Source: Myxococcales bacterium
GTDB taxonomy: Bacteria > Myxococcota_A > UBA9042
Reading direction: 5' to 3'
Length of the DNA stretch: 38,889 nt
NCBI GenBank assembly: GCA_009692425.1
Contig: SHZF01000042.1
Location: 1 to 38,889 of the forward strand
The notes beneath the pieces were generated by a model. The model saw only the letters and a program-made list of their open reading frames with translations, did not search any database and had not been told where the DNA came from. A program made the translations under genes and the position numbers. Position 1 is the first letter of the stretch. Each line of letters opens with the position of its first letter. Of this stretch, positions 15,674 to 32,116 are shown one piece after another.

Positions 15674-15798
15674 GCGTTTTCAGATAGCCGCCGGCTCGCG
15701 GTCTACCGGGCCTGAACGCGCACGCGAAGTCCGCCCCACCGCCCACGAAGTTGACATCCCGCTGCCGAAACCGAAAGTGTAGGCCTGCTGAGGAGCCC

Positions 15799-18213
15799 AT
15801 GGTCGGCAAACCCACGACGCGTCCGACCGATTCCCACTCGCCTGGCCGGCGCTTTTCGCGCAGGCTGGGTTGGTCGTCGGTCCATGGCCGGGCCTGGTCC
15901 AACACGTTTGTGCTGCTTGCTTGGTGCGTCCCGTGCGCCGGCCGAGCCCAACCAGTCGCATTGCCCGCCGAAGTCACCCCCGCCGCTCCCGTCGACGCCC
16001 CACTCGATGTCACCCCTGTCGGCCAGACCGCCGCCCCGGCCGATGCCCCTGCGGCCGCCGCACCGGCTGGGCCCGCACGCACCCCGCTCGTCGTTTCTAC
16101 CCATGCGAACGGCCGGCCCCGCATCGTGGCATGGTGGGTCGGCGACCGCCGCGAGCGGGACGAGCAATTCGGGGAGTCCGGCGAGCGCCAGGCCGAAGTC
16201 GTCTACGGCGAACAGATGAAGCGCGGGGTGTGGACCACGTTTTTCGCCGATGGCTCGCGCCGTGCGAGTTGGATCGCCATCGACGCCAAGAAGGAGGGCA
16301 ACGAGTTTCGCTATGGCCCCGAAGGGCGCAAGATCATGCTGGTGCCGTGGCAGGCGGGCCTGCGCCACGGCGTGCAGACGGAGTACCACCCGACGGGCGA
16401 AGTGCGCAGCGAGATGGTGTTCGAGCGCGGCGCGGTGAAGGGCGCGCTCGTCACCTTCCATCCGGGCGGCCAACGCGAGTCGGTCGTGCCGATCGTCCAG
16501 GAACGCAAGCATGGCGTGGAAACCCAGTTCTGGCCGAACGGTCAGAAGCGCGCCGAAATCCCCTATCACTTTGGCGTCGTTCAGGGGCTCGCGCGCCACT
16601 TCGACGAAGCCGGTCTGCTCACGGCGACGGTGCCCCACGCGCACGGGAGGCCGGAAGGCATCGAGACGTGGTACTGGCCGAGCGGCGCGCGGCGCATGGC
16701 CATCCCGCTGGTCGACGGCGCGCGGCATGGCGTGGGGACGCTGTACAACGAAGACGGCTTGAAGGTCACCGAAATTCCGTGGCAGTCCGGCAAGAATTCC
16801 GGCGTGGAGCGCCGCTTCGACGGCGAGGGCCGCGTCACCGTGGAAACCGAGTACCGCGACGGTGTGGCGTGCTGTCGACAGAGCACGTGGTACCCGTCCG
16901 GGGCGCGCGCGGCCGAGCGCACGTACAGCAACGATCGCTTGAACGGCAAGGAGTCGCGTTGGTCGGATCTGAAAGATGGCGCGGGCGGCGAACTCCAGAT
17001 GGAGGTGCCGCTCGTGGCCGACAAGAAGCATGGGTTGGCGATCGTGTACAACACAAATGGCACAAAGTTCGCAGAGTTGTGGTTTTCCGAAGACGTGCGG
17101 CACGGACCCGAAGTCCGCTACGACGACATGGGGTTCATCGCCGGCGAGTTCCGCTATAGTGCTGGGCAACCGGTCGGAATGGCACGCACTTACTGGCACA
17201 ACGGCCAGAAACAGTCAGAGTTTCCGTTTGCGGAAGGCGGTGGCACGGGCCTGGAAACCCGCTGGACCGAGAACGGCGTGCCCAACATGACCGTGCCGTT
17301 GGTGCGCGGCAAGAAGCACGGCACGATGCGCATCTTCGACAAGCACGGCCAGCCCCAGGCGACGCTGCAGTGGGTCGACAACGTGCAGCACGGCCCAGAG
17401 GTCCAGTTCCACCCTCGCAAGAACGTCGTGCACCAGTGGGACCAGGGGCGTCTGGTCACGGCCGGCATCACGGGGGTCTTGGAACCGCTTTTGGCGGCGC
17501 CGCAGGGCACGGCCCTCGAGGCGAACAAGACGGCCGCGGCGCAGGGCAAGCAGACGCGGGCCCGCTGCCAGCCCGAGTTGCGCGGCATGGTCAAGACGCA
17601 CTTCGACAGTGGCGGCCTGCAAAGCCAGTACCCGGCGGGCGGTACGGGCATGGAGACGCAGTACCACGCCAACGGCAAGGAGCGCTTCGTCGTGCCCTTG
17701 ACCGACTGTCGGCGCAACGGCGTCGCCCGCGTGTTCGACGAGACTGGCGCGCTGTTCGCGACGCTGCCCTACGTGAACGGGCTGCGCACGGGCGTGGAAG
17801 TGCGCTACGCCCGCACCGGCGAGAAAATCGGCACTTACCCATGGACGGACGATCTGCCGACCGGAATTGCCCGGACGTGGTTCGAACAGGGGGGCAAGTC
17901 GAGCGAATTCAATCACGACACGTCGTTGGCAGTGGGCACGGAGATCCAGTTCCACCCGAACGGCGAGGTGCGCATGCAGGCGGCCGTGGTGCGCGGCGTG
18001 CGGCACGGCAAGGCGACGATCTGGAACGAAGTCGGTGTAAAGTGGGCAGACTTGCAGTTCGTGGCCGGCCGTCGGCACGGGGACGAGACCCGTTTCGACG
18101 CCGACGGGAAAAAAATCCGCGTCATGGTCTGGGAGAATGACCGCATCGTGGGCGATACTCTGCTCCGCCCGAGCGCACTCAAAACTCCCGCTGGGCAGGA
18201 GGTGCCGCGATGA
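15799..18213 (+). CDS. Large exported MORN/YwqK-type repeat protein
   Basis: The protein has 804 residues; the ATG at 15799 has AGGAG at 15791-15795. A long N-terminal region holds the export segment (NTFVLLAWCVPCAGRAQ) and a Pro/Ala linker to about residue 105. The remaining 700 residues are roughly 23-residue repeats of the form x-G-x-E-T-x-[FY]-x-x-[ND/S]-G-x-x-[KR]-x-x-x-x-[FY/V]-x-x-G-x-x-[HN]-G (examples: HGVETQFWPNGQKRAEIPY; HGTMRIFDKHGQPQATLQW). These are MORN_2 repeats, known from YwqK-family antitoxins and myxobacterial surface proteins. One spacer at about 565-600 breaks the array. The repeats would form a long beta-solenoid in the periplasm or on the surface. Its stop overlaps the start of the porin gene (ATGA), so the two are co-translated. 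Confidence 0.8.
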   Translation: MVGKPTTRPTDSHSPGRRFSRRLGWSSVHGRAWSNTFVLLAWCVPCAGRAQPVALPAEVTPAAPVDAPLDVTPVGQTAAPADAPAAAAPAGPARTPLVVSTHANGRPRIVAWWVGDRRERDEQFGESGERQAEVVYGEQMKRGVWTTFFADGSRRASWIAIDAKKEGNEFRYGPEGRKIMLVPWQAGLRHGVQTEYHPTGEVRSEMVFERGAVKGALVTFHPGGQRESVVPIVQERKHGVETQFWPNGQKRAEIPYHFGVVQGLARHFDEAGLLTATVPHAHGRPEGIETWYWPSGARRMAIPLVDGARHGVGTLYNEDGLKVTEIPWQSGKNSGVERRFDGEGRVTVETEYRDGVACCRQSTWYPSGARAAERTYSNDRLNGKESRWSDLKDGAGGELQMEVPLVADKKHGLAIVYNTNGTKFAELWFSEDVRHGPEVRYDDMGFIAGEFRYSAGQPVGMARTYWHNGQKQSEFPFAEGGGTGLETRWTENGVPNMTVPLVRGKKHGTMRIFDKHGQPQATLQWVDNVQHGPEVQFHPRKNVVHQWDQGRLVTAGITGVLEPLLAAPQGTALEANKTAAAQGKQTRARCQPELRGMVKTHFDSGGLQSQYPAGGTGMETQYHANGKERFVVPLTDCRRNGVARVFDETGALFATLPYVNGLRTGVEVRYARTGEKIGTYPWTDDLPTGIARTWFEQGGKSSEFNHDTSLAVGTEIQFHPNGEVRMQAAVVRGVRHGKATIWNEVGVKWADLQFVAGRRHGDETRFDADGKKIRVMVWENDRIVGDTLLRPSALKTPAGQEVPR

Positions 18214-19121
18214 CTGAGAATTCCAACACGGTTTTGGGTGGTTGCTGGGCCCGCTTGCCGGACCGACCCTGCTTGGCGTGGGGCGCAGCGCTCGCGGCCG
18301 GGCTGCTGTGCGCCAGCGCATCGGCGTGGGCCCAGGAAGACAAGCCAGCCGACGCCAAGGCTTCGGACGCCAAAGCCGCCGACGCGGCCGAGCCCGGCAA
18401 CGCAGCCGGAGAGGAGAGCGCCGCACAGGCCGATGCGGACCCGCTCGCCGATCGGTTCACGGCCGGAGTCGAAATCCATTCGAAGTACATCCAGCGCGGC
18501 ATGAGCGCGGACCCGGACAACAAGTACCCCGCCATCCAGCCGTCGGTCGAACTCCTGTTGCCGTACGGTTTCGCGTTCAACTATTGGGGCTCGTCCGTCT
18601 CGTACACCGGCAGTGACCCCGACACCGACCCGAACCACGGCGTGGAAAACGATCTCGGACTGAGTTGGGGCACCGAATTCGGCAGTTTCTCGGCGCGGCT
18701 CGGCGCGTACTACTACTACTTCAACCGGGCGAACGCCTCCAATACCGTGGAAGCCTTCCTGAACTTGGGGTGGTCTGGCAAGCTGATGGGCCGCGATCAC
18801 AGCGTCAGCATCGCGCCTTATGTCGTGGCCGTAGAGAGCGACTGGGGCAAGCCGGGCGAGACCTACATCAACGCGCTTGCGGAGATGGAGCTGCCGTGGA
18901 AGTTCAATGGATACATTGACTTTGGCTGGCAGATCGCGATGTGGGACGAGGCACTGACGACGAAGCGGTCCTCGTCGGATTTCCGCAACCTGAACTTGAT
19001 CCTGGGCCGCGAGGTGGCGCCCGGCATCGAGTTGAAGCTCGACTTCCTGTTCGCCGGCAAGGACCGCGATGGCAACCAGCAGCCGAACACGCTGATGTGG
19101 GCTGTCGCATTCGGCGGCTGA
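18210..19121 (+). CDS. TorF family putative outer-membrane porin
   Basis: The protein has 303 residues with a signal peptide ending SASAWAQ and an Ala/Asp/Lys-rich linker to about 85. The barrel region begins TAGVEIHSKYIQRGMSADPDNKYPAIQPSVELLLPYG and continues FAFNYWGSSVSY, the typical opening of the TorF/Gcw_chp (TIGR02001) family ('...SDYRFRGISQS...PAIQ...YAGVWGSSVD'). Alternating beta strands follow to the C-terminal GG. Its ATG overlaps the stop of the MORN-repeat gene, which suggests translational coupling and a joint envelope role. The transported solute is unknown. Confidence 0.75.
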   Translation: MTENSNTVLGGCWARLPDRPCLAWGAALAAGLLCASASAWAQEDKPADAKASDAKAADAAEPGNAAGEESAAQADADPLADRFTAGVEIHSKYIQRGMSADPDNKYPAIQPSVELLLPYGFAFNYWGSSVSYTGSDPDTDPNHGVENDLGLSWGTEFGSFSARLGAYYYYFNRANASNTVEAFLNLGWSGKLMGRDHSVSIAPYVVAVESDWGKPGETYINALAEMELPWKFNGYIDFGWQIAMWDEALTTKRSSSDFRNLNLILGREVAPGIELKLDFLFAGKDRDGNQQPNTLMWAVAFGG

Positions 19122-19169
19122 TCCCCGATCTGCCAGCGCCGGCGGCAGACAGACCGCGGGGAGCAAGAG

Positions 19170-20483
19170 ATGGCCGCCGCCGATTCCCTGCGCATGGTGG
19201 GCGCCGCCCTGCGCGACCGCAACCTGTTGCTCTTGTTGGCGCTGGGGTTCGCCTCGGGCCTGCCGTATGCACTGCGCGGCGAGACGCTGCAGGCGTGGTT
19301 GAAGGGTTCGGGTGTCGACGTCGCCACGATCGGCATGCTGACGTGGGTGGGGCTGCCGTACTCGTTCAAGTTCGTGTGGGCACCGCTTTTCGACCGCTTC
19401 CAGCTGCCGTGGCTGGGCCGCCGCCGCGGGTGGATCGCCGCCTCGCAGGTCGCCGCGGGGCTGGCGATTGCGGGCATGGGCCTGGCCAGCCCCTCGCAAG
19501 CGTTGGCCGCGCTCACTGGGCTCGCCGTCCTCGTCGCATTCGCGTCCGCCAGCCAGGACATCGTTAGCGACGGCTACCGCGCGGACCTGCTGCATGGCAA
19601 ATCGCTCGCCACGGGCACGGCGACGTTTCTGCTCGGCTATCGTATCGCGATGCTCGTGGCCTCGTCAGGTGCGCTGCTGCTCGCTGACGCCCTGATGAAA
19701 GGGGGCGGCCTCGAGCGCGACGCGGCGTGGCGCTGGGTTTACCTGGCGATGGCGGGGCTGCTCGTGGTCGGCCTCGTCGCCGCCGTGCTGGCGCCAGAAC
19801 CGGAACAGGAGCGGCCGCCGCCGACGTCGCTCGCCGCCGCCGTGGTCCAGCCATTCGTGGCGTTTGCGCGGCGCTGGGGCTGGCGCGAGGCCATGATGGC
19901 GCTGGCGTTCGTGTCGATCTTCCGCCTGTCGGATCGGCTCCTGTTGACCACGCCGTTCTACTTGGAACTGGGCTTCTCGAACACGGACCTCGCCACGTTC
20001 CGCAAGATCATCGGCACCGTGGCGACCATCATCGGTTTCGGGGTCGGCGGCACGCTCGTGGCCAAGGCCGGCATCCGGCGCGGCCTGTGGGTCGGCACGG
20101 TCGCCATCGCCGTGTCGAACCTCGGCTTCGCGGCATTGGCGATGGTGGGCAAGTCCTACCTCGTGTTTGGCCTCGCCGTCGGGCTCGACAGCCTATGCAA
20201 CGGCATCGCCGACACCGCATTCATCGCTTTCCTGCTCGGCCTGTGCGAGCAGCGCTACAGCGCCACCCAGTACGCCCTGCTGTCGAGCGCGGCGGCGTCG
20301 GTCGGCACGGTCGTGGGCGGGTTTTCGGGCTTCCTCATCCAGTCGCTGGGCTGGACGCAGTTCTTCGTGGCGACCGTGCTGGCCGGCATCCCAGCGGTGC
20401 TCTTGCTGTGGCGCCTGCCGCGCAGTCTGTTCACGGCGGTCGATGGTCCACCCGAGACTACGCCTACCGCATCACATCTTTGA
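19170..20483 (+). CDS. ampG: AmpG-type MFS permease for muropeptides
   Basis: The protein has 437 residues and about 12 membrane helices. A GGGGAG ribosome-binding site lies at about -12. The opening GFASGLPYALRGETLQAWLKGSGVDVATIGMLTWVGLPYSFKFVWAPLFDR is the AmpG signature, and FASASQDIVSDGYRADLL matches the conserved 'QDIVIDAYRVE' segment of the family. AmpG brings anhydromuropeptides from the periplasm into the cytoplasm for cell-wall recycling. It follows the porin gene by 48 bases and probably belongs to the same transcript. Its 3' end overlaps the convergent small-subunit gene by 20 bases. Confidence 0.85.
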   Translation: MAAADSLRMVGAALRDRNLLLLLALGFASGLPYALRGETLQAWLKGSGVDVATIGMLTWVGLPYSFKFVWAPLFDRFQLPWLGRRRGWIAASQVAAGLAIAGMGLASPSQALAALTGLAVLVAFASASQDIVSDGYRADLLHGKSLATGTATFLLGYRIAMLVASSGALLLADALMKGGGLERDAAWRWVYLAMAGLLVVGLVAAVLAPEPEQERPPPTSLAAAVVQPFVAFARRWGWREAMMALAFVSIFRLSDRLLLTTPFYLELGFSNTDLATFRKIIGTVATIIGFGVGGTLVAKAGIRRGLWVGTVAIAVSNLGFAALAMVGKSYLVFGLAVGLDSLCNGIADTAFIAFLLGLCEQRYSATQYALLSSAAASVGTVVGGFSGFLIQSLGWTQFFVATVLAGIPAVLLLWRLPRSLFTAVDGPPETTPTASHL

Positions 20484-21264
20484 GCCGTGCGGCGGGCAAC
20501 CGGTCGAGCATCCGCAGCAGTCCGTCGAGCACGGTCAACGGGTGGGGCGGGCAGCCCGGCAGCCACAGGTCGACCGGCACCACCGACTCCGCGCCGCCAT
20601 GCACTTCGGGATGGCCCGCGTAGGGACCGCCCGAGATCGCACACGCGCCCATGGCAATGACGATCTTGGGCGCGGGCACTGCGTCCCACGTCTTTTGCAG
20701 CGCCAGCTTCATGTTCTCGGTGACCGGCCCCGTGACGAGCAAGCCGTCGGCGTGGCGTGGCGACGCGACGAAGTCGATGCCGAAGCGCTGGATGTCGAAG
20801 CCGATCGTCGTGAGCACGCTGGCATCCCCCTCACACGCATTGCAGCCGCCCGCCGACACCTGGCGCAGCTTGAGCGAGCGGCCGAACAATTTGCGCAGTT
20901 TTTCGTCGAGCGCACCTGCCAATTGCAGCGGTTGGCCGGTCAGGTGCAGCGCGGCGCGGTCCGACGCTGCCATACGCCAGTCGCGCGTGTGGTGCAGGGC
21001 GCCCGTCGGGCAGGCCGCTTCGCACGCGCCACAGAACAGGCACGCCCCGAGATCGAGTTGGAATCCCTGTCCCTGCGGGCCCGTCGGCGGGCGAATCGCG
21101 TCGGTCGGGCAGGCGTCTGCACACAAGCGGCACGCGTCGCTGCACTTGTCTGGGTGGAACGCGAGCAGGCCGCGGTAGCGCTCGGGCATGACCGGGGCCG
21201 GCACATCGGGCCACTGCAACGTGCGGTGACCCTGATGCAGGCGCGCGCGCAGGGCATTCAACAT
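20464..21264 (-). CDS. Ferredoxin-fused small subunit of the Ehr/group-4 hydrogenase-like complex
   Basis: The protein has 266 residues; the ATG at 21264 has GAGGGG upstream. Residues 35-90 form a 2[4Fe-4S] ferredoxin with Cys41/45/48/52 (first spacing C-x3-C, unusual) and Cys75/78/81/85. Residues 135-255 are a NuoB/HyfI-like domain with the proximal-cluster ligands Cys141, Cys144, Cys208 and Cys238 (GGCNACEGD, MGACAISGG, PGCPP). In E. coli these are two proteins, HyfH (HycF) and HyfI (HycG); here they are one chain. It would pass electrons from a soluble donor to the membrane part. It is the last gene of the operon, after a 98-base gap that holds a strong hairpin. Confidence 0.85.
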   Translation of the reverse strand: MLNALRARLHQGHRTLQWPDVPAPVMPERYRGLLAFHPDKCSDACRLCADACPTDAIRPPTGPQGQGFQLDLGACLFCGACEAACPTGALHHTRDWRMAASDRAALHLTGQPLQLAGALDEKLRKLFGRSLKLRQVSAGGCNACEGDASVLTTIGFDIQRFGIDFVASPRHADGLLVTGPVTENMKLALQKTWDAVPAPKIVIAMGACAISGGPYAGHPEVHGGAESVVPVDLWLPGCPPHPLTVLDGLLRMLDRLPAARLKDVMR

Positions 21265-21306
21265 CGGATCCCCTCGCGCGCCATGACATCTCTCCTACGA
21301 TTCACA

Positions 21307-21363
21307 ATACCAAAGCCCACCGAATCGGAACGAGCGCCGAGCCGAATTCAAGGGATTTGGTAT
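21307..21363. other. Long inverted repeat between large- and small-subunit genes
   Basis: ATACCAAAGCCC (21307-21318) pairs with GGGATTTGGTAT (21352-21363) with one mismatch, and an inner arm (GAATCGG with CCGAATTC, one bulge) extends the stem. The element begins at the stop codon of the large-subunit gene and is AT-richer than its surroundings. It could stabilise or attenuate the message before the last gene. Confidence 0.65.
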
Positions 21364-22967
21364 CACAGGTCGAAGCCACAATACGACAAGTTGAAGCTCT
21401 TGTTGCACAGGGGAAAGTCGGAAATCGCCTGGCCCCGCATCGCCAGCGCCAGGCCGCTCCAACCGTGGAAGCTGGGATCGACGATCTTGTAGCGACAGAA
21501 GCCGCCGCCGGCGGGCGCCGTGATGCCGACGTGCACGATCTCGCCGCGCCACCCCTCGACGATGCCGACCGCGATGTGGTCCGGCGGCAGCGTTCCGCAT
21601 GGCACGGCGGCGGGACCCTGCCAGGCGTCGTCCTGGGCGACCAGCCAACGAATCGTGGCGGCCGACTGCTCGACCTCGCGCGCACGCTGGTGGGTGCGGG
21701 CGGCGACGTCGCCGGCCCGTTCGGTGACGGGCTCCCAATGGGCACGCCAGGCAAACGCGGTGCCGGCCGGAAACGCATCGCGGGCGTCGCGCTCCAGGCC
21801 GCTCGCACGGGCAGCCGGACCCACCACGCCGAGTTCGCGCGCTTGCAACTTCGTTAGCACGCCGGTCCCGTCGAAGCGCGCCATGACGCTGGCAGATTCC
21901 CACAGAAGGTTCACGGCTTCGTCGACGTCGGCCACGGCGGCATCGAGCTTGGCCAGCAGTTCGCGGCGCAGCGACGGCTCGGCTCCGACGCGAACGCCGC
22001 CGGGCACGACGAGCCCGCGGCCGAAGCGGCTGCCACACAACTGTTGAGAGAGGTTCAGGAAGTCTCCGCGCAGCCGCCCGCAGAAGGATTGCGTCGGCAG
22101 GTAGCCCACGTCGCCGGCGAGGGCACCGAGGTCGCCGACGTGGTTGGCCATGCGCTCCAGTTCGAGGGCGAGCGCGCGCACTCCTTCGGCGTGGCCCGAC
22201 GTCACCGTGCCGGCCACGGCCTCGCAGACCCGCGCGTAGGCCGTGGCGTGACCGATGGTCGTATCGCCCGCGACGGTTTCGACGAGGTGCACCCGACGCT
22301 GCGCCGGGCCGCTTTCGAGGGCGCGCTCGACGCCACGGTGCTGGTAGCCCAGCGCGATCTCGAGGTGATGGACATGCTCGCCCCAACACTGGAAGCGAAA
22401 GTGCCCGGACTCGATGACGCCGGCGTGAACCGGCCCGACGGCCACCTCGTGCACGCCGGGACCCTCGATCTCGTAGAACGCGCCGCTGCCGACCCCGCCA
22501 GCCGCAACTGCGCCCACGACGGGACGCGGCTGCGGCGGATACCTGACGGGCTTCAACCAGGGGTGATGCAGGACATCGATGGAGAATTGCTCAGCGATCT
22601 CGCGCTCGAACAGGTGTGCCTGGGCGAGCTCTGGCGTCATGGAATCAAAGCGCGGGGCGGTGAGCCGGGCGCGACCAACGCACACCTGGTCCCGGGCGCC
22701 CAGGTGTACGACCGCCCAGAGGTCGGGCCACGCCGACCCTGCCGGGCTGTCCGAGCCGGCAGCCCTGTGGCCGAAAAGCGCCATCAGTTTGCCGCCGTAG
22801 GCCACGGCGGCGACGATGGCGCTGCGCAGTTCGCGCCACGGCATGGGCTCCACGGCGGCAAGGGGCAGTGCGCTGGCGATCGGCAGCGGCACGAGCGCCG
22901 AGCGGTGCGGACCGGTCAGGTCGACAAGGCCGAGCGGCTCCAACTCATCGTGACTCTTGTCGCTCAC
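21363..22967 (-). CDS. NuoCD/HyfG-like large subunit lacking the NiFe cysteine ligands
   Basis: The protein has 534 residues. I chose the GTG at 22967, which overlaps the preceding stop (GTGA). The first 145 residues are NuoC-like and contain the family segment EREIAEQFSIDVLHHPWLKP. The rest is NuoD/HyfG-like: GPVHAGVIESGHFRFQCWGE, HHLEIALGYQHRGVE, LELERMANHVGDLGALAGDVGY. In true hydrogenases the segment near 230-241 reads R-x-C-G-x-C; here it reads VETVAGDTTIGHAT, with neither Cys. The C-terminal D-P-C-x-x-C motif is replaced by DFPLCNKSFNLSYCG (Cys521, Cys530). So no Ni site is expected, as in Ehr complexes and NuoD. Catalysis, if any, differs from H2 formation. Confidence 0.8.
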   Translation of the reverse strand: MSDKSHDELEPLGLVDLTGPHRSALVPLPIASALPLAAVEPMPWRELRSAIVAAVAYGGKLMALFGHRAAGSDSPAGSAWPDLWAVVHLGARDQVCVGRARLTAPRFDSMTPELAQAHLFEREIAEQFSIDVLHHPWLKPVRYPPQPRPVVGAVAAGGVGSGAFYEIEGPGVHEVAVGPVHAGVIESGHFRFQCWGEHVHHLEIALGYQHRGVERALESGPAQRRVHLVETVAGDTTIGHATAYARVCEAVAGTVTSGHAEGVRALALELERMANHVGDLGALAGDVGYLPTQSFCGRLRGDFLNLSQQLCGSRFGRGLVVPGGVRVGAEPSLRRELLAKLDAAVADVDEAVNLLWESASVMARFDGTGVLTKLQARELGVVGPAARASGLERDARDAFPAGTAFAWRAHWEPVTERAGDVAARTHQRAREVEQSAATIRWLVAQDDAWQGPAAVPCGTLPPDHIAVGIVEGWRGEIVHVGITAPAGGGFCRYKIVDPSFHGWSGLALAMRGQAISDFPLCNKSFNLSYCGFDL

Positions 22968-24433
22968 GGGTGGACCTCGAGGACGGCGACGGCCGCGTGC
23001 AGCAGTTCCTCGACGGGCTGCGGCAGCCAGAGGCCGAGCCCGACCATTGCGATCGCGAGCAGGCCGATCGGCAACACGGACCACAACGGCTCGCGCGGGG
23101 CGGGCGCGGCCGTGTCACGCGCCGGGTCGGTGGCGTCGGCGCCGTGGTCAGAATCACGCCCCTGCACGACGCCGAGCACGGTGCCGGCATGCCCAAGAAA
23201 CGCAGCGAACAAGAGCACAAGGAAACACGCCGCGACGACCCAGCGCCCGTCCGTCACGAGGGCGCCGCCGATGACGAGAAGCCCGGCGAACGACAGGAAC
23301 GGCGGCGACCCGGTTGCGGCAAAGAACCCGGCCAGGAACAGGCTCCCCGACACCGGCAGGCGGTGCAATACCCCGCGGATTGCGCTGACCTGCTTGGAGC
23401 CGTACGTGCGGTGGATGTTGGCGGCCGCGAGAAACAACACGCCTTTGGACGCCGCATTGCCGATCATGTAGAGCAGCGCGCCGAGGTGGGCACGCGGGCC
23501 ACCGACGCCGGCCGCCAGCGCGAGCACGCCCATGTGCTCCACGCTCGAGTAGGCGAGCATCCGCTTGAGGTCGCGCTGGCGCAGCATGAACACCGCACCG
23601 ACCGCCATCGACGCCAGCCCGAGCACCACCAGGACGTCGCGCACGTGGGCGCCCTGCCCTCCCGCCTCGGCAATGCGCGCGACGCGCAACACCGCCAGGA
23701 ACGCAACCGACGTCGTTCCGCCCGCCAGCACCATGCCCACCACACCGGGGGCCTCGCCGTACGCATCCGGCTTCCAGGTGTGCACTGGCGCCAAGCCCAT
23801 CTTGCCGGCGTAACCCAGCAGGAGGAACGCCAAGGCTGCGTGCAGCCAGGCCGGTGGCATCGAGGGCGCGGCGGCCATCAGGTCTTCGAACAGCAACGTC
23901 GAAGGATGGCCCGCGAGCACAGAAGCGTGGGCGAGGAAGAACGAGCCCAGCAACGCCAACGCCACGCCGACGGACGAAAGTAGCAGGTACTTCCACGTCG
24001 CCTCCAACGAGCGGGCATTGCGATTGAACAGGAGCAACGGCGCCGTCGCCAGCGCGCTCGCTTCGATGGCCACCCACATCAGGCCGAGGTGGTGGGCGAC
24101 GACGACCAGGGTCAACGCCGCAAGCAGGCCGAGCATCGCGGCGACGAAAAAGCGGTTGCGGCGGTGGTGGAAGTGCCGCACGTAGCCGGGCACGTACAAG
24201 GACGCCACGGCGAACACACACGACACGGTGGCGAGCACCAGCTTGCCAAGCGCGTCGAGCACGAGCCAGCCGCCGGCCGATTGGCGCGCGTCGCCGGGCA
24301 CGACCAGACACATCAGCCCGAAGTGGCCGAGGGCGCCGAGCGGGACGAGCCACGGCCGGATGCGCTCCCACGGCAGCACGAGCGCGACGACCGCGGCGCC
24401 CAGGGGCAGATAGACCAGGGCCTCGATCGTCAA
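22964..24433 (-). CDS. hyfF: Proton-pump-type membrane subunit HyfF
   Basis: The protein has 489 residues and about 13-14 membrane helices, and starts at a TTG that overlaps the stop of the preceding gene (TTGA). It is a Mrp/NuoN-type antiporter-like subunit. Key residues of the family are visible: Glu in WVAIEASALATAPLL, Lys in LLLGYAGKMGLAPVHTWKPDAYGEAP, and Lys/His in RQRDLKRMLAYSSVEHMG. The segment ATWKYLLLSSVGVALALLG is typical of HyfF/HycC-like proteins. It would couple electron flow to ion movement across the cytoplasmic membrane. It is cotranscribed in a tight overlapping array with the large subunit. Confidence 0.85.
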   Translation of the reverse strand: MTIEALVYLPLGAAVVALVLPWERIRPWLVPLGALGHFGLMCLVVPGDARQSAGGWLVLDALGKLVLATVSCVFAVASLYVPGYVRHFHHRRNRFFVAAMLGLLAALTLVVVAHHLGLMWVAIEASALATAPLLLFNRNARSLEATWKYLLLSSVGVALALLGSFFLAHASVLAGHPSTLLFEDLMAAAPSMPPAWLHAALAFLLLGYAGKMGLAPVHTWKPDAYGEAPGVVGMVLAGGTTSVAFLAVLRVARIAEAGGQGAHVRDVLVVLGLASMAVGAVFMLRQRDLKRMLAYSSVEHMGVLALAAGVGGPRAHLGALLYMIGNAASKGVLFLAAANIHRTYGSKQVSAIRGVLHRLPVSGSLFLAGFFAATGSPPFLSFAGLLVIGGALVTDGRWVVAACFLVLLFAAFLGHAGTVLGVVQGRDSDHGADATDPARDTAAPAPREPLWSVLPIGLLAIAMVGLGLWLPQPVEELLHAAVAVLEVHP

Positions 24434-25176
24434 CGCGGCTCCTCGCGGCGCAAGCCCAGTGGATCCGTCTGGCGCACGGCACGAAAGCGGCCCGTCTCGC
24501 GCAAGCTGGTCAACGGTTCCTGTTCCGCATCGTGACCGTCGTGCGCCGCGGCCGCCACGTCGCGATCGATCTGCTCAAGCAGCAGACCCATCGTGAACAC
24601 ACCGGCAAACACGTCGAGCAGCACGCCCGCTTCGACCAGTTCGGGCATCGCATCGAGCAGCAGCAGCCCGAACGCGAACACGCCGTTCTCGATCGTCAGG
24701 AAGCCGAGCACGTGCGAGATCGCCGTGCGACGCGTGACGAGCATCCAGAAGCCGGCGAGCACGCCCGACAGCGCCGCAGGCACGACGAGCCACGATCCGC
24801 CAACCGACGGCGCCCCGTCGCCAGCCAGCGTGCGGGCAAACAACAGTGCTGCCGCCGTGCCCGCCGCGCCGAGCATCAGGGACGCGACGAAGCCGACGTG
24901 GGGGTGCGTCTCGCGCGGCGTCGTGCCGGGCTCCAGGCCTTGATCGAGCATGCGCGGGATCACGATGCCCTTGATGGCCATCGCGCCGACCGACACCGCC
25001 ACGCCGCGCCACGACTGGCCCGGATGCAACGCGAGGGCCGCCACGCCCAGCACGAATCCTTGGACGCCGACGGCCCGGATCGATGCGCGCAGCCGGCTCG
25101 AACCGAGCGTGAAGAAGTTCAGCACGATGACCAGCATCAGCAGCGGCTCGGCGAAGGGGAGGGACGCGTGCGGCAT
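24430..25176 (-). CDS. hyfE: Membrane subunit HyfE (NuoK-like)
   Basis: The protein has 248 residues, the ATG at 25176 lying two bases after the preceding stop. It has about seven helices and carries the family features AIKGIVIPRMLDQ and GFLTIENGVFAFGLLLLDAMPELVEAGVLLDVFAGVFTMGLL (Glu in a helix, as in the NuoK/MrpC proton path). The C-terminal 45 residues are soluble. Homologues in hyf and hyc-like operons form a NuoK-like part of the membrane arm. It stands between hyfC and hyfF, in the same order as in E. coli hyf (where hyfD, absent here, lies before hyfE). Confidence 0.8.
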   Translation of the reverse strand: MPHASLPFAEPLLMLVIVLNFFTLGSSRLRASIRAVGVQGFVLGVAALALHPGQSWRGVAVSVGAMAIKGIVIPRMLDQGLEPGTTPRETHPHVGFVASLMLGAAGTAAALLFARTLAGDGAPSVGGSWLVVPAALSGVLAGFWMLVTRRTAISHVLGFLTIENGVFAFGLLLLDAMPELVEAGVLLDVFAGVFTMGLLLEQIDRDVAAAAHDGHDAEQEPLTSLRETGRFRAVRQTDPLGLRREEPR

Positions 25177-25178
25177 GG

Positions 25179-26183
25179 TCACATCGGCGGCCGGCCCGCC
25201 AGGAGCAGGCCGAATCCGGCGGCAAGGGTGGCAGACACCAGCAGTTTCGGCACGTTCGTCAGGCGCAGGCGCGCCATGGCCGACTCGATGAAGCCGACCA
25301 CCACGGCGACGACGGCGACGCTGGCGACGCTCACGGCGAGGTTGAGGGGCGCGCTGCCAGCATCGAGGGGAAGCGCGACGCGGCCGACGAGCGCGCACCA
25401 GAACGCGAGCTTGACCGCCGCCGCCGCCAGCGCCACCGCCAGCGCCGGGCCGCTGTGATCCAGGATCATGACATCGTGGACCATCGTCAGTTCGAGGTGG
25501 GTGTTGGGGTCATCGAACGGGATGCGACTGTTCTCGGCAAGCAGCACGACGGCCCAGGCACCGGCCACCAGGGCGAGCGGCGCGGCGGCAGCGGGCCATT
25601 GGTCGCGGAGAGGTCCGCCGAGCAGGCCGGCGAGCGAGCGGTGCCCCGTGATCTTCACGAGGATCATGGCGCCCAGCAGAAAGGCGGGTTCGGCCAGCAC
25701 GCCGTACTGCACCTCACGGGCGGCGCCCATGCCCGCGAAGGCGGATCCCGTGTCGAGCGCGGCTGCCGTGGTGAGGAACCGACCGAGCGCCAGCAGGCCG
25801 GCCACAAACACGACGTCGCCGGGGAACGCGAACACGGAGCCGTGATCGGCCAGCGGCACGAACACGACGGCGCCCACGGCGGTGGCGAGCGCGACGACGG
25901 GCCCGGCGAGGAACACGAACGACGTCGTGGTCGACCGCACCATGCCCTTGCGCCACAGCCGCACGAGGTCGAAGTAGCCCTGCAAAAGCGGCGGCCCGCG
26001 CCGCCCGCCGACCACAGCCTTGACGCGCGCGATGATGCCCAGCAGCAGCGGCGCCACAAGCACCAGCAGCACCACATGGAGCAGCGCGGCGCCCGGCGAG
26101 CGCGGGTCCACCCACGGCGGCAGAATGGCCGGCATCGCGCCCGGCGGCGGCATGGGCAGGTGTTCGGGCAAGGGGACAGGCAT
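25179..26183 (-). CDS. hyfC: Membrane subunit HyfC (NuoH-like)
   Basis: The protein has 334 residues from the ATG at 26183. Start choice is uncertain: a TTG at 26219 and ATGs at 26153 and 26135 are also in frame, none with a clear ribosome-binding site, and the N-terminus is a Pro/Leu/Met repeat (MPVPLPEHLPMPPPGAMP). The body is a NuoH/HyfC protein of eight helices: VKAVVGGRRGPPLLQGYFDLVRLWRKG is the family's quinone-side loop signature, and AENSRIPFDDPNTHLELTMVHD carries the conserved acidic residues. It should anchor the soluble subunits to the membrane. Confidence 0.85.
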   Translation of the reverse strand: MPVPLPEHLPMPPPGAMPAILPPWVDPRSPGAALLHVVLLVLVAPLLLGIIARVKAVVGGRRGPPLLQGYFDLVRLWRKGMVRSTTTSFVFLAGPVVALATAVGAVVFVPLADHGSVFAFPGDVVFVAGLLALGRFLTTAAALDTGSAFAGMGAAREVQYGVLAEPAFLLGAMILVKITGHRSLAGLLGGPLRDQWPAAAAPLALVAGAWAVVLLAENSRIPFDDPNTHLELTMVHDVMILDHSGPALAVALAAAAVKLAFWCALVGRVALPLDAGSAPLNLAVSVASVAVVAVVVGFIESAMARLRLTNVPKLLVSATLAAGFGLLLAGRPPM

Positions 26184-26234
26184 GGGGACAAGCAGGCGGA
26201 CAGGCAGGGGGACTGGCAACGACGCTACGGCGAC

Positions 26235-28244
26235 TCAAGGTCTCCACAACAACAGGACGACGAGCAGGACGAGCATGTACAGGAAATACGCTTGCGTGCG
26301 GCCGCTCTGCATCACGCGCACCGCAGCGAGAGCCTGGCCGATCCGCCGCAGTGCGGGCGCCAGCACGCGATCCAGCACGATGTCAGTGACTTGCACAACC
26401 AGCGTTGCGCGCGCTGGGAAGAAGCCTTCGAGCCGCGGTGGACGGTGGTGCGTGGCCAGGGCACGGCCGAACATCTCGACGGTGGCTTGGGAAAAGGAAG
26501 CGGCGGTGTACTGCATGCGCGCGCTCGGGGTCGCGTAGCCGCAGTCCCACGTGTTCGCGTAGGCGACAGGGACTTGGGCAATCCGGCGCCGCAGAACCAG
26601 CGCCACGATGCCGACGAGCACGGCCAGCGCAAGGCAGGCCCCGGCCAGTGCGGGCAGCGGCGCCAGCGTGCGCAACGGACCCGCCGCCGCAACGCCGGCC
26701 CAGTGGGTAAACGCGAGGTCGATCGCGACGGAGAGCGCGGGCGTCGCCAGGCCGAGCCCGATGCACGCCCCAGCCAACACGCCCAGCGGCCAGGCCATCG
26801 GCCCCACCGGATCGTGGGCGTACGCGCCGCTGGCTCCGCGCGGCTGGCCGAGGAATGGGATGCCGTACGCCTTGACGAAGGTGCCGACGCCGAGGGCGCC
26901 CACCAGCGCGAGACCGGCCACGCCGATCGAAGCAGCGACCTGCACGGGATACGCGGGCGCCGTCGACAACAATAAAAGCGACATGAATACGAGCCATTCG
27001 CTGGCGAAACCCGCGAACGGCGGCAGCCCGCTGATCGACAACGCACCGACCAGGAAGGCCAGCGCGGTGCGCGGCATGCGCTGCGACAGGCCACCCAGCG
27101 CGTCGAGGGTCTGCGTCCCCGTCCCCTGCACGGCAGCGCTGGCGGCGAAGAAAAGCAGACCCTTGCCTGCGGCGTGCGTCCAGACGTGGAGCAGCGCGCC
27201 GCCTAGGGCCAGCGCGGCAATGTCGCCGGCACGAAACGAGCGCGCCAGTTCGGCCGTGCCGAGGCCGACCGCGAGGATGCCGACGTTTTTCACGGTGCTG
27301 TACGCGAGCAGGCGCTTGAGGTCGGTCTGGCCCAGCGCCGTGGCGATGCCGAACGTGGCAGCGGCGAGGCCGAGCGCGATCAGCACCGCGCCCCACCACC
27401 ACGACGGCGTGCCGAGCAGCCACGTCACGCGCACGAGACCGTAAAAGCCGACCTTGACGAGCACGCCGGACAGCAGCGCGGACACGTGCCCCGGCGCCTG
27501 CGCGTGGGCGGTCGGCAACCAGAAATGGAGCGGCCACAGCCCGGCCTTCGTGCCAAAACCGACGAGGGCCAGCACGAACAGGACGTTGCGCACGGTGGGG
27601 TCGAGGTCGATGGCGAGATTGGGGTCCAGCGCGAACGAGCCGGTGCTGGCGTGCCAGACGGCGAACAGGGCCAGCAGGGCCAGCGACGACAGGTGGGTGG
27701 CCGCCAGGTAGAGCCACGCCGCCGCGCGCACCTCGGATCGGTGATCTTCGGTGCCGATCAGGAAAAACGCCGACAGGGCCATCGCTTCCCAGCCGACGAG
27801 CAGCACGAAGGCGTCGCGCGCCGCCACCACGGTCAACATGCCGGCGACGAGCGTGCCGAGGAAGAAACGCACGCGCCCGGCAGAGTGCGGATGGCGCACC
27901 GCGGACCAGTAGCGCAGCCCGAACACGGCACTCAGGCCGCCCAGGACGGCGATCGGCACGAGGAACCAGCGCTGCAGCGGATCGGAACCGAAGCGATCGT
28001 CGAGGCCGAGTTCGGTGCGCGGCAGCCACCCCGCCGCCTCGCGAGCCCAGGCGCTGAAACCCTCGAAGGCGCCCAGATCGAGCGCGGTTCCCAGCGCGGC
28101 CAGCGCCACAATGGCACCGCACGCCAGCACGAGCAACGCCGCCGACACACGGCCCGACGAGAAGCCGGGCCCGCGGGACAAGAGGGCGGGCACTCCGCTG
28201 CAGGCCGCCAGAAGGACGGCCAGAGCGAGCAACTCTTGAATCAT
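26235..28244 (-). CDS. hyfB: Proton-pump-type membrane subunit HyfB
   Basis: This 669-residue, 14- to 16-helix protein of the NuoL/HyfB type is the first gene of the operon. Family signs are LLVGWEAMALSAFFLIG (helix Glu), GFGTKAGLWPLHFWLPTAHAQAPGHVSALLSG (Lys and His), GQTDLKRLLAYSTVKNVG, and a soluble C-terminal tail with ANTWDCGY, PSARMQYTAASFSQ and SGRTQAYFLYMLVLLVVLLLW, diagnostic for HyfB/HycC. It would move ions in response to redox-linked changes in the soluble arm. The ATG at 28244 is well separated from the divergent gene at 28430. Confidence 0.9.
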   Translation of the reverse strand: MIQELLALAVLLAACSGVPALLSRGPGFSSGRVSAALLVLACGAIVALAALGTALDLGAFEGFSAWAREAAGWLPRTELGLDDRFGSDPLQRWFLVPIAVLGGLSAVFGLRYWSAVRHPHSAGRVRFFLGTLVAGMLTVVAARDAFVLLVGWEAMALSAFFLIGTEDHRSEVRAAAWLYLAATHLSSLALLALFAVWHASTGSFALDPNLAIDLDPTVRNVLFVLALVGFGTKAGLWPLHFWLPTAHAQAPGHVSALLSGVLVKVGFYGLVRVTWLLGTPSWWWGAVLIALGLAAATFGIATALGQTDLKRLLAYSTVKNVGILAVGLGTAELARSFRAGDIAALALGGALLHVWTHAAGKGLLFFAASAAVQGTGTQTLDALGGLSQRMPRTALAFLVGALSISGLPPFAGFASEWLVFMSLLLLSTAPAYPVQVAASIGVAGLALVGALGVGTFVKAYGIPFLGQPRGASGAYAHDPVGPMAWPLGVLAGACIGLGLATPALSVAIDLAFTHWAGVAAAGPLRTLAPLPALAGACLALAVLVGIVALVLRRRIAQVPVAYANTWDCGYATPSARMQYTAASFSQATVEMFGRALATHHRPPRLEGFFPARATLVVQVTDIVLDRVLAPALRRIGQALAAVRVMQSGRTQAYFLYMLVLLVVLLLWRP

Positions 28245-28323: not shown

Positions 28324-28429
28324 GGGCTTGCATGGGGCCGGCGGCCAGTTCAGGGTACGCGGGCGGCGCGCCGAGGTCGAAGTGCTAGGTCGGCGCGCCG
28401 GGCCAACCTCAAGAAGCGGAGTCCGCGCC

Positions 28430-29458
28430 ATGCGCACCGGGCCAACCTGCTGCGTTTACCTGGCCGTAGCAGTATTCGGTTGGCTCGGCGACCCGGCGAC
28501 GGGGCGCACGCAGCCCGCCCACGGCCCGACGGGACCCATGCCCGAACCGATGCGCGACAGCCGGCGCGACGAGGCCGAAACGCTTGCGTTGGCGCCGCTA
28601 CCCGGGCATTTGCTGGTCGAGATCGACTGGCGCGCTGAGACGCGCGGCGACTTCTCCGTGCTCATCGGCAACGCGAAGTACGTCATTCGCGATCCGGCGC
28701 GCCACGCCGAGGCCGCGCTGCAGGTGGCTTTCGCGCGCGCCGCTCGGGCGCCCATGCCGCCGTGGCCGTTGCAGGTGATCGTGCGCTCGTTTGACCTCGC
28801 CAACCTGGGCGACGGTGTGCAAGTGCGCCTGGGACTTTCCGTGCTGGACCGACGCGATGGCTGGGTCCTGTACAAGGGCACGATCGAGTCCACGACCCCG
28901 TTGCCGAAGACTGCGGCTGCGGCGCCGGTTGTGGCAGCCCTCCTGACCCAAGCGCTCGACACGGCCGCAGACGAGAGCATGCGCGCGTTTGCGGGGCGCC
29001 AGCGCCTCCCGCTGGTTGGCGGCAATCGGCGCCCGCCGATGTGGCTCGGTGTCGAGGCCTTGGCACCCGCCGATCTCGCCGGCACACTGCGCCTGCAGAT
29101 GGCGCGCCGGCATGCTGCGGAACTTGCGCTGAACCCGGGCTGGCCGGGGTTGCTAGTGCGGTTCAGTCACGTGTACACGCTGCTGCGGCGTGAAGGCCTG
29201 TCGGCCGACGCCCAATCGGGACTGATTGCGTCACTGCCCCGCCTGTTCGCCAACTGCGCCGCGGGTGCGTGCGACTTGACCGAGCAGTTGTTCGTGGGCG
29301 GCGAGGGCCGCTTCGGACTCGGGTTCTGGCTCGGCGACGACGAACGGCACCTCGTCGGGCTGTCGGCAGGTCTGCGCGTGGGCGTGCGATTGCGCGCAGC
29401 GGGAAGCGGACTCGATGGCACAGGGGTTTTCGCCCTGGCGTATGGCTACGGTTTCTGA
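28430..29458 (+). CDS. Exported protein of unknown function
   Basis: The protein has 342 residues; the ATG at 28430 follows AAGCGGAG by about 8 bases. A signal peptide (CCVYLAVAVFGWLGDPATGRTQ) comes first. Residues of about 55-200 look like a soluble alpha/beta domain (LLVEIDWRAETRGDFSVLIGNAKYVI; LQVIVRSFDLANLGDGVQVRLGLSVLDRRDGWVLYKGTIE), and the last 90 residues have alternating strands ending in ALAYGYGF, an aromatic end as found in outer-membrane proteins. No family is recognised. It lies 39 bases before the serine dehydratase genes on the same strand, but nothing ties their functions. Confidence 0.6.
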   Translation: MRTGPTCCVYLAVAVFGWLGDPATGRTQPAHGPTGPMPEPMRDSRRDEAETLALAPLPGHLLVEIDWRAETRGDFSVLIGNAKYVIRDPARHAEAALQVAFARAARAPMPPWPLQVIVRSFDLANLGDGVQVRLGLSVLDRRDGWVLYKGTIESTTPLPKTAAAAPVVAALLTQALDTAADESMRAFAGRQRLPLVGGNRRPPMWLGVEALAPADLAGTLRLQMARRHAAELALNPGWPGLLVRFSHVYTLLRREGLSADAQSGLIASLPRLFANCAAGACDLTEQLFVGGEGRFGLGFWLGDDERHLVGLSAGLRVGVRLRAAGSGLDGTGVFALAYGYGF

Positions 29459-31159: not shown

Positions 31160-31195
31160 CCTGCGGCGGCCCGACTTGGGCAGGAGCCGTGCGTG

Positions 31196-32116
31196 ATGCC
31201 CCCTTCCCGAAACTCCCTGTCGCGAGATGAGATGCCCGCCTCACGCACAGCCCTCGCCGCGCTTGCCGCGCTCGCCGCCCTGGCGGGACTCGTGGGCTGC
31301 GAAGCGAAGCGCGCCAAGGTCGATGGCGACATGCTGGCGTGGTTGCAGTCGCAGCCCGACACGGGCGGCGCCGAAGCAACCCTGACCGCCGCAGCGCCCG
31401 CCGTGGTGACCAGCACGCAGGCCCCGGCAGTTGGCGGTGACGTGGTGACCGCGACCAACGACGTGGTGACCGCGACCAACGACGTGGTGACCGCGACCAA
31501 CGACGTGGTGACCGGCGGCAATGACCTCGCCGTAACCGACGCCGCCGAACTCGACTCCGCCGACGTCACCACCGTGCTCGACGCCGCCGACGCCAGCGCC
31601 CCGCTCGACGCCGCCGTTGCCGCCGCCGACGCGAGTTGTGCGAACTGTCCGGGCGCACCGGCACCGGTCTGGTCTCTTGTCGATTTCCAGCCCAAGTCCG
31701 CGGGGTTCAAGGCGAGCTACGGCCTCTCGAAGTTCGCCGGCAAGGTGACCGTGGTCGCGTTCCTGGCAAGTTGGTGAGGCTTCTGCGTTTCCCAGGCTGG
31801 GAAACTCGACAAGATGCAGAAGGAACTCAAGGCTGCCGGCATCGACGTCCCGTTCGTGGTGGTCAACGTGGTGTCGGGCACCGACAGTCAGGCGAACCTC
31901 ATCGACGTGTGTGACCTGCCGCTGCTGCAAGATACCGACGCGGTCAAGGCGTGGGACGTGCATGGCGCGGCGAAGGACGACGTCGCGATCTACACCGCCC
32001 AAGGCAAGCTCTGGCAGTGGTTCCCGTTCGGCGGGGTGTTCGACACGAACTTCGGTAACGATGCCAACTATTCCGCGTTCAAGGCAAAGGTTGTCGAAGC
32101 GACGCAGGCGAAGTAG
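31196..32116 (+). CDS. Thioredoxin-like lipoprotein with in-frame TGA: probable selenoprotein
   Basis: Read through the TGA at 31775-31777 the protein has 306 residues, with Sec at 194. The ATG at 31196 has AGGAG at 31182-31186; an ATG at 31232 is also possible. A lipobox (LVGC, Cys35) predicts a lipoprotein. A Thr/Asp/Val-rich linker with a DVVTATN repeat follows, then a CxxC (Cys148, Cys151), a beta strand lead-in (PVWSLVDFQPKSAGF; VTVVAFLASW), and U-G-F-C (Sec194, Cys197) at the exact place of the thioredoxin W-C-x-x-C. After the TGA the same frame continues with VSQAGKLDKMQKEL and a complete thioredoxin C-terminal half (FVVVNVVSG; VAIYTAQGKLWQWFPFGG) to a normal TAG. Sequence alone cannot exclude a nonsense change or sequencing error, but the hairpin at 31787-31805 argues for Sec. 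Selenocysteine genes (selA, selB, selC, selD) are not in the window. Confidence 0.85.
31439..31522 (+). repeat. 21-bp tandem repeat encoding DVVTATN
   Basis: Three identical 21-base copies (31439-31501) and a fourth with changes at its end (31502-31522, giving DVVTGGN) lie in the linker between the lipid anchor and the thioredoxin domain. Repeat number could change linker length. Confidence 0.9.
31787..31805 (+). promoter_or_regulatory. Predicted bacterial SECIS hairpin
   Basis: GTTTCCCAGGCTGGGAAAC begins 9 bases after the TGA codon. It forms a perfect 8-bp stem with a GGC apex, or a 7-bp stem with an AGGCU loop. In E. coli fdhF the SECIS apex also lies about 18-22 bases beyond the UGA and contains a G that SelB contacts. 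The coding role of the same bases (VSQAGK) is kept. Confidence 0.75.

Follow-up and report, generated by a model that had tools for sequence, protein, structure and literature searches.

Introduction

Ehr complexes (Ech- or energy-converting hydrogenase-related) were named from Geobacter, where they are encoded by GSU0739-45, and are also known from Nitrospira, Methylacidiphilum and others. Ehr has been excluded from HydDB as a non-hydrogenase (PMC5037454), several papers note that it has no CxxC and no known function, and about half of the Nitrospirales genomes in one study carry it (PMC12342949). Coupling of a redox reaction to ion transport by Ehr has so far only been suspected in print. 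The closest described systems are formate hydrogenlyase (FHL) and hydrogenase-4, with the group 4a large subunits HycE and HyfG, complex I, and MBS (Mbx) of Pyrococcus furiosus, likewise related to hydrogenases and with an incomplete NiFe site. Here the analysis covers a 38,889-nucleotide stretch (contig SHZF01000042.1, assembly GCA_009692425.1; “the window”) from a Myxococcales bacterium, which carries a six-gene operon sharing with the Geobacter, Nitrospira and Methylacidiphilum Ehr the subunit set, the missing NiFe ligands and the hydrogenase-like gene organization. Since Ehr is already in the literature, the window adds one more member to a known type of complex. With a probability of about 0.7, we read the operon as encoding an Ehr complex, EhrA-B-C-D-L-S, predicted to be a membrane-bound, nickel-free member of the complex I/group 4 hydrogenase superfamily that would act as a redox-driven ion pump. 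The letters EhrA, EhrB and EhrC serve below both as subunit names within the operon and as names of three groups of large subunits, the latter always given as “group”.

An Ehr-type operon without NiFe ligands

The six genes are intact and closely packed on the minus strand (28244-20464), with overlaps of a few bases at the HyfE/HyfF and HyfF/large-subunit junctions; domains were assigned by scanning the large open reading frames (ORFs) of the window with Pfam and NCBIfam models. The first gene encodes the EhrA subunit, a HyfB/NuoL-like antiporter of 669 aa (26235..28244; Proton_antipo_M 1.4e-53, and hydrogenase 4 subunit B model 1.4e-149, under that model's cut-off), followed by the HyfC/NuoH-like membrane subunit EhrB (25179..26219; NADHdh 3.6e-30), the start of which is uncertain, with conservation from about residue 50. 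The HyfE-like membrane subunit EhrC (24430..25176, 248 aa, ATG at 25176) matched the hydrogenase 4 membrane subunit model (5.2e-12) and no Pfam family, and has a homologue in 75 of the 80 best loci described below. Next come the HyfF-like antiporter EhrD (22964..24433, 489 aa; Proton_antipo_M 4.3e-44), the large subunit EhrL with NuoC-like and NuoD/HycE-like domains (21363..22967, 534 aa, GTG at 22967; Complex1_49kDa 1.4e-27 and an 81-row alignment), and EhrS (20464..21264, 266 aa; Fer4 and Oxidored_q6), a 2x[4Fe-4S] ferredoxin joined to a NuoB/HyfI-like proximal-cluster domain. The initial annotation had given the order as hyfB-C-E-F-G-I; order, coordinates and ORFs stand, and only its last gene changes, being an HyfH-type two-cluster ferredoxin fused to the HyfI/NuoB domain.

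In the alignment of EhrL with HycE, all four Ni ligands are replaced: C241, C244, C531 and C534 of HycE correspond to A233, T236, S528 and G531, and R239 to T231. This bears out the earlier observation that VAGDTT (V232-T237) occupies the R-x-C-G-x-C site (aligned in register as T-V-A-G-D-T), the segment A233-G234-D235-T236 (22260..22271, minus strand) standing in place of the N-terminal C-G-x-C, and likewise that the C-terminal C-x-x-C is gone, the corresponding positions reading S-Y-C-G within P519-L-C-N-K-S-F-N-L-S-Y-C-G-F-D-L534 (21366..21413, minus strand). Both Cys pairs are absent from all 80 best relatives in the alignment. Large subunits of the EhrA group, to which the window belongs, were counted over 97 rows after three had been removed: L089, which is the window's own locus, the partial L100, and L139, which shares its place with L085. 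Cys occurs at position 233 in a single row, position 236 is T in 83, S in seven, A in six and G in one, and Ser528 and Gly531 are found in 97/97, as are the G and D at 234 and 235. EhrL stops at the site of hydrogenase processing, its L534 taking the place of HycE R537; HycE runs on beyond this point with a tail that is cleaved off, and EhrL has none. Cys521 and Cys530, to which the initial annotation had drawn attention, are indeed present; they align with I524 and S533 of HycE, not with Ni ligands. Hidden Ni ligands were rejected as an explanation, since the alignment gave none in register with HycE or elsewhere in the protein.

An AlphaFold2 model of EhrL (pLDDT 85, pTM 0.89) had HycE as its best fold match (Foldseek E 3.8e-25; VIA Z 41.4, root-mean-square deviation (rmsd) 2.8, 487 aligned residues; structure matches were counted only if on the VIA lists), the model being least reliable precisely at the cavity loops 179-188 and 526-534.

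No HypD was found in the host genome (95.97% complete). Among 36 same-class genomes, counted without G012 and G018 (low completeness, no match) and with Ehr scored as an A1 match at E < 1e-90, HypD occurs in 5/16 genomes with Ehr (missing in 11) and in 5/18 without, giving no association (Fisher p = 1.0); among 50 Ehr hosts from other groups it is present in 34 and missing in 16. Because HypD is missing from the host and from many other Ehr carriers, Ehr has no need of NiFe maturation. As proposed earlier, none of the other large ORFs scanned in the window gave a match to a family of hydrogenase maturation proteins or formate dehydrogenases. An active NiFe hydrogenase with its ligands elsewhere would fit the overall fold and the FHL-like operon; since the C-x-x-C pairs have no counterpart in register, the host lacks HypD and Ehr forms a clade of its own (below), we give this next to no weight.

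Family and phylogeny

A scan of 84,980 species genomes returned at least 555 relatives, of which the best 80 loci were taken further. All 80 encode the relative (49-57% identity in the best segment), and the order B-C-E-F-G-HI recurs on most of their contigs of sufficient length, across many phyla. Chance is excluded because all of these loci encode the relative, most of them in the same gene order.

A Maximum Likelihood tree of large subunits was generated from 76 rows, unrooted and with only seven hydrogenase rows; 20/80 loci were sampled, NuoD was thinned to 23 rows, L112 was dropped and L153 was missed by the motif filter. Ehr forms one clade (100/99), sister to HycE/HyfG (100/97) and apart from NuoD, Mbs, Ech and Mbh, so that no grouping within the active group 4 hydrogenases was seen. 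Together with the replacement of all four Ni ligands, this position upholds the Ehr-type, NiFe-less identity assigned at the outset. MbsL, represented by one row on a long branch, falls on the NuoD side of the tree, away from Ehr, and MBS also has a different motif at the first Cys pair. A NuoD paralogue was rejected on the tree position and because two genuine NuoD genes are found elsewhere in the host genome.

At least three Ehr groups are evident in the tree – the EhrA group (37 rows including the window), the EhrB group (six plasmid sequences, weakly supported at 82/8) and the EhrC group (two Burkholderiaceae plasmid sequences). Geobacteraceae are represented by L077 within the EhrA group (clade 100/99) and by L063 and L076 in the 81-row alignment, G. 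sulfurreducens itself being outside the data; all three loci have the same operon as the window, and the Geobacteraceae type differs in having a second NuoL-like subunit (L063 has three antiporter ORFs) where the window has one. The EhrB-group plasmid complexes (Rhizobium, Bradyrhizobium, Azospirillum, Variovorax, Rhodococcus) share I-E, G-D, D286 and N-K-S-F-N-x-S-Y with the window, whereas they have Arg at 231, Ser/Ala at 530 and no C194, and their small subunit, about 176-181 aa in the annotated operons, carries no ferredoxin fusion.

On a plasmid of Variovorax sp. PBL-E5, operons of the EhrA and EhrB groups lie a few kb apart (L115:6908-14192 and 17604-25051), the gap containing a gene for a universal stress protein. 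A divergent EhrC-group operon without the N-K-S-F motif lies next to a DUF190 gene on a Burkholderia cenocepacia plasmid (L126:2757-10899), and L125 is similar. In the relative G004, EhrL of the main EhrA group is encoded twice, on contigs C93 and C48 (L087, L136), and other members of its family have a Variovorax-like EhrA subtype; such mixed EhrL types within one family suggest transfer or loss.

Conserved residues of the EhrL cavity

In the structure of E. coli FHL, Glu193 of HycE is the proton donor, R478, D529 and S283 form a canopy and H284, E437 and R395 a proton path (PMC9474812). In EhrL, E186 (codon 22410..22412, minus strand), H276, E431 and R474, the counterparts of HycE E193, H284, E437 and R478, are each found in 97/97 EhrA-group rows, and R387 (HycE R395) is R in 92 and K in five. 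At the canopy, N275 (HycE S283) is kept in 88/97 rows, and N526 (HycE D529) is N in 85, D in nine, S in two and G in one. With the FHL-type path residues conserved to this extent, the proton route to the cavity is retained in EhrL, the canopy Asp having mostly become Asn. The new, family-wide residues that fill the pocket, a family-specific and nearly invariant signature, are G234-D235 and, at the C-terminus, N522-K523-S524-F525-x-x-S528-Y529; specifically, D235, N522, K523 and Y529 are present in 43/43 rows of the EhrA and EhrB groups combined and in 97/97 EhrA-group rows.

The cysteines of EhrL were considered separately. In the first, 81-row alignment five of them stood at 80-81/81; over the 97 EhrA-group rows full invariance holds only for C194 and C521 (97/97 each), followed by C311 (96/97), C530 (93/97, Ala in four rows) and C296 (89/97, with Trp in one subclade of five rows). 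A Cys-ligated replacement cofactor was not adopted, C194 and C521 alone remaining invariant. The same counts lend some weight to an MBS-like polysulfide or disulfide reductase in which C194 and C521 (and C530) would be redox-active thiols near the proximal cluster, but we regard this as quite unlikely given that MbsL groups with NuoD and that the EhrB group lacks C194 in 6/6 and C521 in 2/6 sequences.

Iron-sulfur clusters and membrane subunits

The fusion of a ferredoxin with an HyfI-type domain in EhrS is common to 75/75 aligned homologues (249-294 aa), and the 12 cluster Cys, which account for three [4Fe-4S] sites, are kept in 72-75 of 75 rows. At the proximal cluster the pattern is that of hydrogenases, G-[GA]-C-x-x-C being present in 67/75 rows; the other eight comprise five with G-D-C-x-x-C, two without Cys (L005, L008) and one unread (L077), and tandem Cys (G-C-C, as at N2 of complex I) occur in 0/75. 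In a model of EhrS (pLDDT 90.1), residues 119-263 superpose on E. coli HycG (Z 17.1, rmsd 2.1, 143 aligned), a comparison that barely probes the ferredoxin half.

The initial annotation held that the pump subunits retain their key Lys and Glu residues, and this proved to be the case across 68-79 aligned rows. E153, K233, K264, H353, H357 and K361 of the EhrA subunit are present in 67-68 of 68 rows (proteins <550 aa were excluded from this HyfB-like alignment, which may mix both HyfB-like copies of some loci), E169, E177, E229 and E243 of the EhrB subunit in 71/71, and E124 of the EhrD subunit in 78/79, with K148, K211 and K330 in 79/79. We take these Lys and Glu to have the pump roles of their counterparts in complex I. 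Two long antiporter ORFs are found in 35/80 loci and three in 33/80. As read from the alignments, the window complex has no Ni ligands, three predicted [4Fe-4S] sites, two antiporter-like subunits and HyfC- and HyfE-like subunits, and the conserved pump residues and intact iron-sulfur wire are consistent with redox-coupled ion transport.

Ehr is like FHL and hydrogenase-4 in its closest fold, sister position, proton-path residues and hydrogenase-type proximal cluster, and unlike them in having no NiFe ligands, cleaved C-terminal tail, maturation genes or formate dehydrogenase. With complex I it shares homologous subunits (NuoD/NuoB/NuoI, NuoL/M/N, NuoH) and the Asp at D286, whereas it lacks the quinone His and Tyr, the tandem Cys at N2 and an NADH module in the operon, and falls in a separate clade.

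Selection on the large subunit

Nonsynonymous to synonymous substitution ratios (dN/dS) were calculated by the Nei-Gojobori method for nine pairs of EhrL genes from relatives, the window, without a close relative here, being in no pair. In eight of the nine, values ranged from 0.064 to 0.242; the ninth (L074/L081, 0.663) is near-identical (pS 0.003) and has no power. These ratios show long-term purifying selection on EhrL in the relatives, and a pseudogene was rejected on the intact frames in the window and the low dN/dS outside it. A 2026 paper regards Ehr in Geobacter as already non-functional, and missense changes in ehr genes are reported from long-term Geobacter electrode cultures (PMC13194489), which, with the loss of the NiFe site, would accord with a decayed hydrogenase kept by drift. 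This is very improbable in the light of the dN/dS values, the approximately 100 invariant EhrL columns in the 81-row alignment, the intact six-gene operons across many phyla and the abundance of Ehr proteins in Geobacter on formate (PMC7894505). For the Ehr family as a whole, the ratios and invariant columns thus counter the non-functional view.

An HTH-PTS-EIIA gene beside most Ehr operons

A gene for a helix-turn-helix (HTH) domain fused to a phosphotransferase system (PTS) EIIA domain (HTH_17-PTS_EIIA_2, by Pfam on one representative) is part of the Ehr locus in 56/80 loci. Its end lies at most 1 kb upstream in 47 of the 64 loci that have >900 bases before the first antiporter gene, most commonly with a 3-base overlap or a gap of <50 bases. 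The His of its G-I-A-I-P-H motif is conserved and is presumably the phosphorylatable one. The window's host differs in having no HTH-EIIA gene, the best match in its genome (E 1.9e-4) covering the HTH part alone; the matches in other genomes of its family were incomplete, covering either the EIIA domain or the HTH, and G029, an Ehr-bearing genome of its class, has a full-length HTH-EIIA (E 6e-97). No report of an Ehr-EIIA link was found in the literature searched, most subscription papers lying outside it.

Proposed electron donor, acceptor and reaction

If Ehr is an ion pump driven by redox chemistry, its donor would be soluble and of low potential, for instance ferredoxin, and would dock on the ferredoxin head fused into EhrS. 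A ferredoxin-like donor is proposed because of this head, because the operon has no input module and because a 2-oxoacid:ferredoxin oxidoreductase domain is encoded in the host genome. Electrons would travel through the three [4Fe-4S] clusters, including the proximal one, and reach an acceptor lodged in what was once the NiFe/quinone pocket; there the acceptor would be reduced with protons delivered along the FHL-type path (E186, H276, E431, R474). Acceptor reduction would drive cation pumping, or the complex may run in reverse and make reduced ferredoxin. On formate, G. sulfurreducens had higher levels of all Ehr subunits than when hydrogen was present (PMC7894505), an increase that would fit such reverse flow. 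The flanks of the 80 Ehr loci contain no recurrent gene for a redox partner; apart from the HTH-EIIA gene, only a second copy of an antiporter gene recurs there, and an NuoEFG NADH module is neither in the window operon nor recurrent near these loci.

Several observations weigh against the ion-pump reading. The quinone residues of NuoD are replaced in EhrL (His38 by I185, Tyr87 by G234), and the first Cys of the proximal cluster are incomplete (one or both missing) in two EhrS proteins (L005:11537-12262 and L008:4621-5340) whose loci contain the rest of the operon. In 20/50 Ehr hosts (genome completeness unstated) neither MqnA/D nor MenD was found over cut-off, and neither Mqn nor MenD was found over cut-off in the window's host. 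A formate dehydrogenase partner for Ehr has been proposed (PMC6349859), implying a different donor, and we infer electron transfer, donor, acceptor and pumping from sequence.

The formate dehydrogenase proposal, in which electrons would come from an enzyme encoded elsewhere, was made for Margulisbacteria and Saganbacteria (PMC6349859) and agrees with the raised Ehr subunits on formate in G. sulfurreducens (PMC7894505) and with formate hydrogenlyases being the nearest active relatives in the tree. For the window we consider it unlikely: no formate dehydrogenase gene recurs near the 80 loci or was matched in the scanned window ORFs, the clusters lie in the fused ferredoxin subunit, and an HycB-like partner is absent from the operon.

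A complex I-like ferredoxin:quinone oxidoreductase, with the quinone held by the new residues D235, K523 and Y529, is a serious possibility, somewhat short of even odds. The NuoD-type Asp that partners the quinone His (D286 in EhrL) is present in 97/97 EhrA-group rows and variable in hydrogenases, and a quinone pool is likely in the host, which has two NuoD genes elsewhere in its genome and a strong UbiA match. Opposed to this are the lost equivalents of His38 and Tyr87, the hydrogenase-type proximal cluster, nearest relatives that are HycE/HyfG and not NuoD, and the distribution of quinone pathways. Among the 50 Ehr hosts, MqnA/D occurs in 28 and, of the 22 without, MenD over cut-off in two, leaving the 20 mentioned above, which weigh against a universal quinone acceptor; UbiA-family genes are found in 21 of the 22 Mqn-negative hosts. 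One of the 20 belongs to the Methylococcaceae, a ubiquinone-using lineage. In Riflemargulisbacteria, Ehr is described as present without full quinone pathways (PMC6349859). A quinone as Ehr acceptor is thus possible, not established.

Within the ion-pump reading, a membrane quinone bound in a new way and another small acceptor are equally plausible in the window's host, each a little less than an even bet, with the remainder going to other acceptors. A broader and more doubtful suggestion is that Ehr adds a third type of reaction to the complex I superfamily. The NiFe/quinone cavity would then have become a new proton-coupled site (I-E, G-D, D286, C521-N-K-S-F-N-x-S-Y) for an acceptor other than H+ and quinone; strong selection would maintain it in many phyla, even where the host has no recognized menaquinone pathway, and in most lineages the HTH-PTS-EIIA phospho-sensor would be dedicated to its control. 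The Ehr literature, as far as it was consulted, does not take up the signature of the cavity, the Cys counts, the association with HTH-EIIA or the dN/dS values.

Neighboring genes and a candidate selenoprotein

The scanned genes flanking the operon include AmpG, TorF-like genes, serine dehydratase genes, a phosphatase-like protein and a TonB receptor, and a divergent gene beside the operon (28328-29458) had no family match. Upstream of a TorF-like porin gene, an 820-aa MORN_2-repeat protein is encoded at 15751-18213 (plus strand). At 31193-32116 (plus strand), two ORFs in the same frame join if TGA at 31775-31777 is read as selenocysteine (Sec), giving a 307-aa redoxin-like lipoprotein that is a candidate selenoprotein. 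The Sec reading gives A-S-W-U-G-F-C at the redox motif (Pfam SelP_N 2.9e-9, Redoxin 1e-8). An inverted repeat (GTTTCCC/GGGAAAC) follows the TGA; its fold does not stand out from those of shuffled sequences (z -1.0) and Rfam gave no match for this region. In approximately 2.0 Mb scanned, the host genome has two separate tRNA-Sec genes, both on the minus strand (L193:4466-4558, contig C7 of G000, and L274:6545-6637, contig C68 of G000; Rfam 74.1 and 71.7 bits), and two copies in one genome seem unusual.

Conclusion

Among respiratory-type complexes that still lack an explanation, Ehr is one of the more common. The signature residues of its cavity, the low dN/dS and the FHL-type proton path it retains all speak for a functional complex of unexplained chemistry. 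The conserved signature names the residues, and the neighboring HTH-EIIA gene the regulator, for first tests. If the acceptor were indeed neither a proton nor a quinone, this would bear on how complex I gained quinone reduction.

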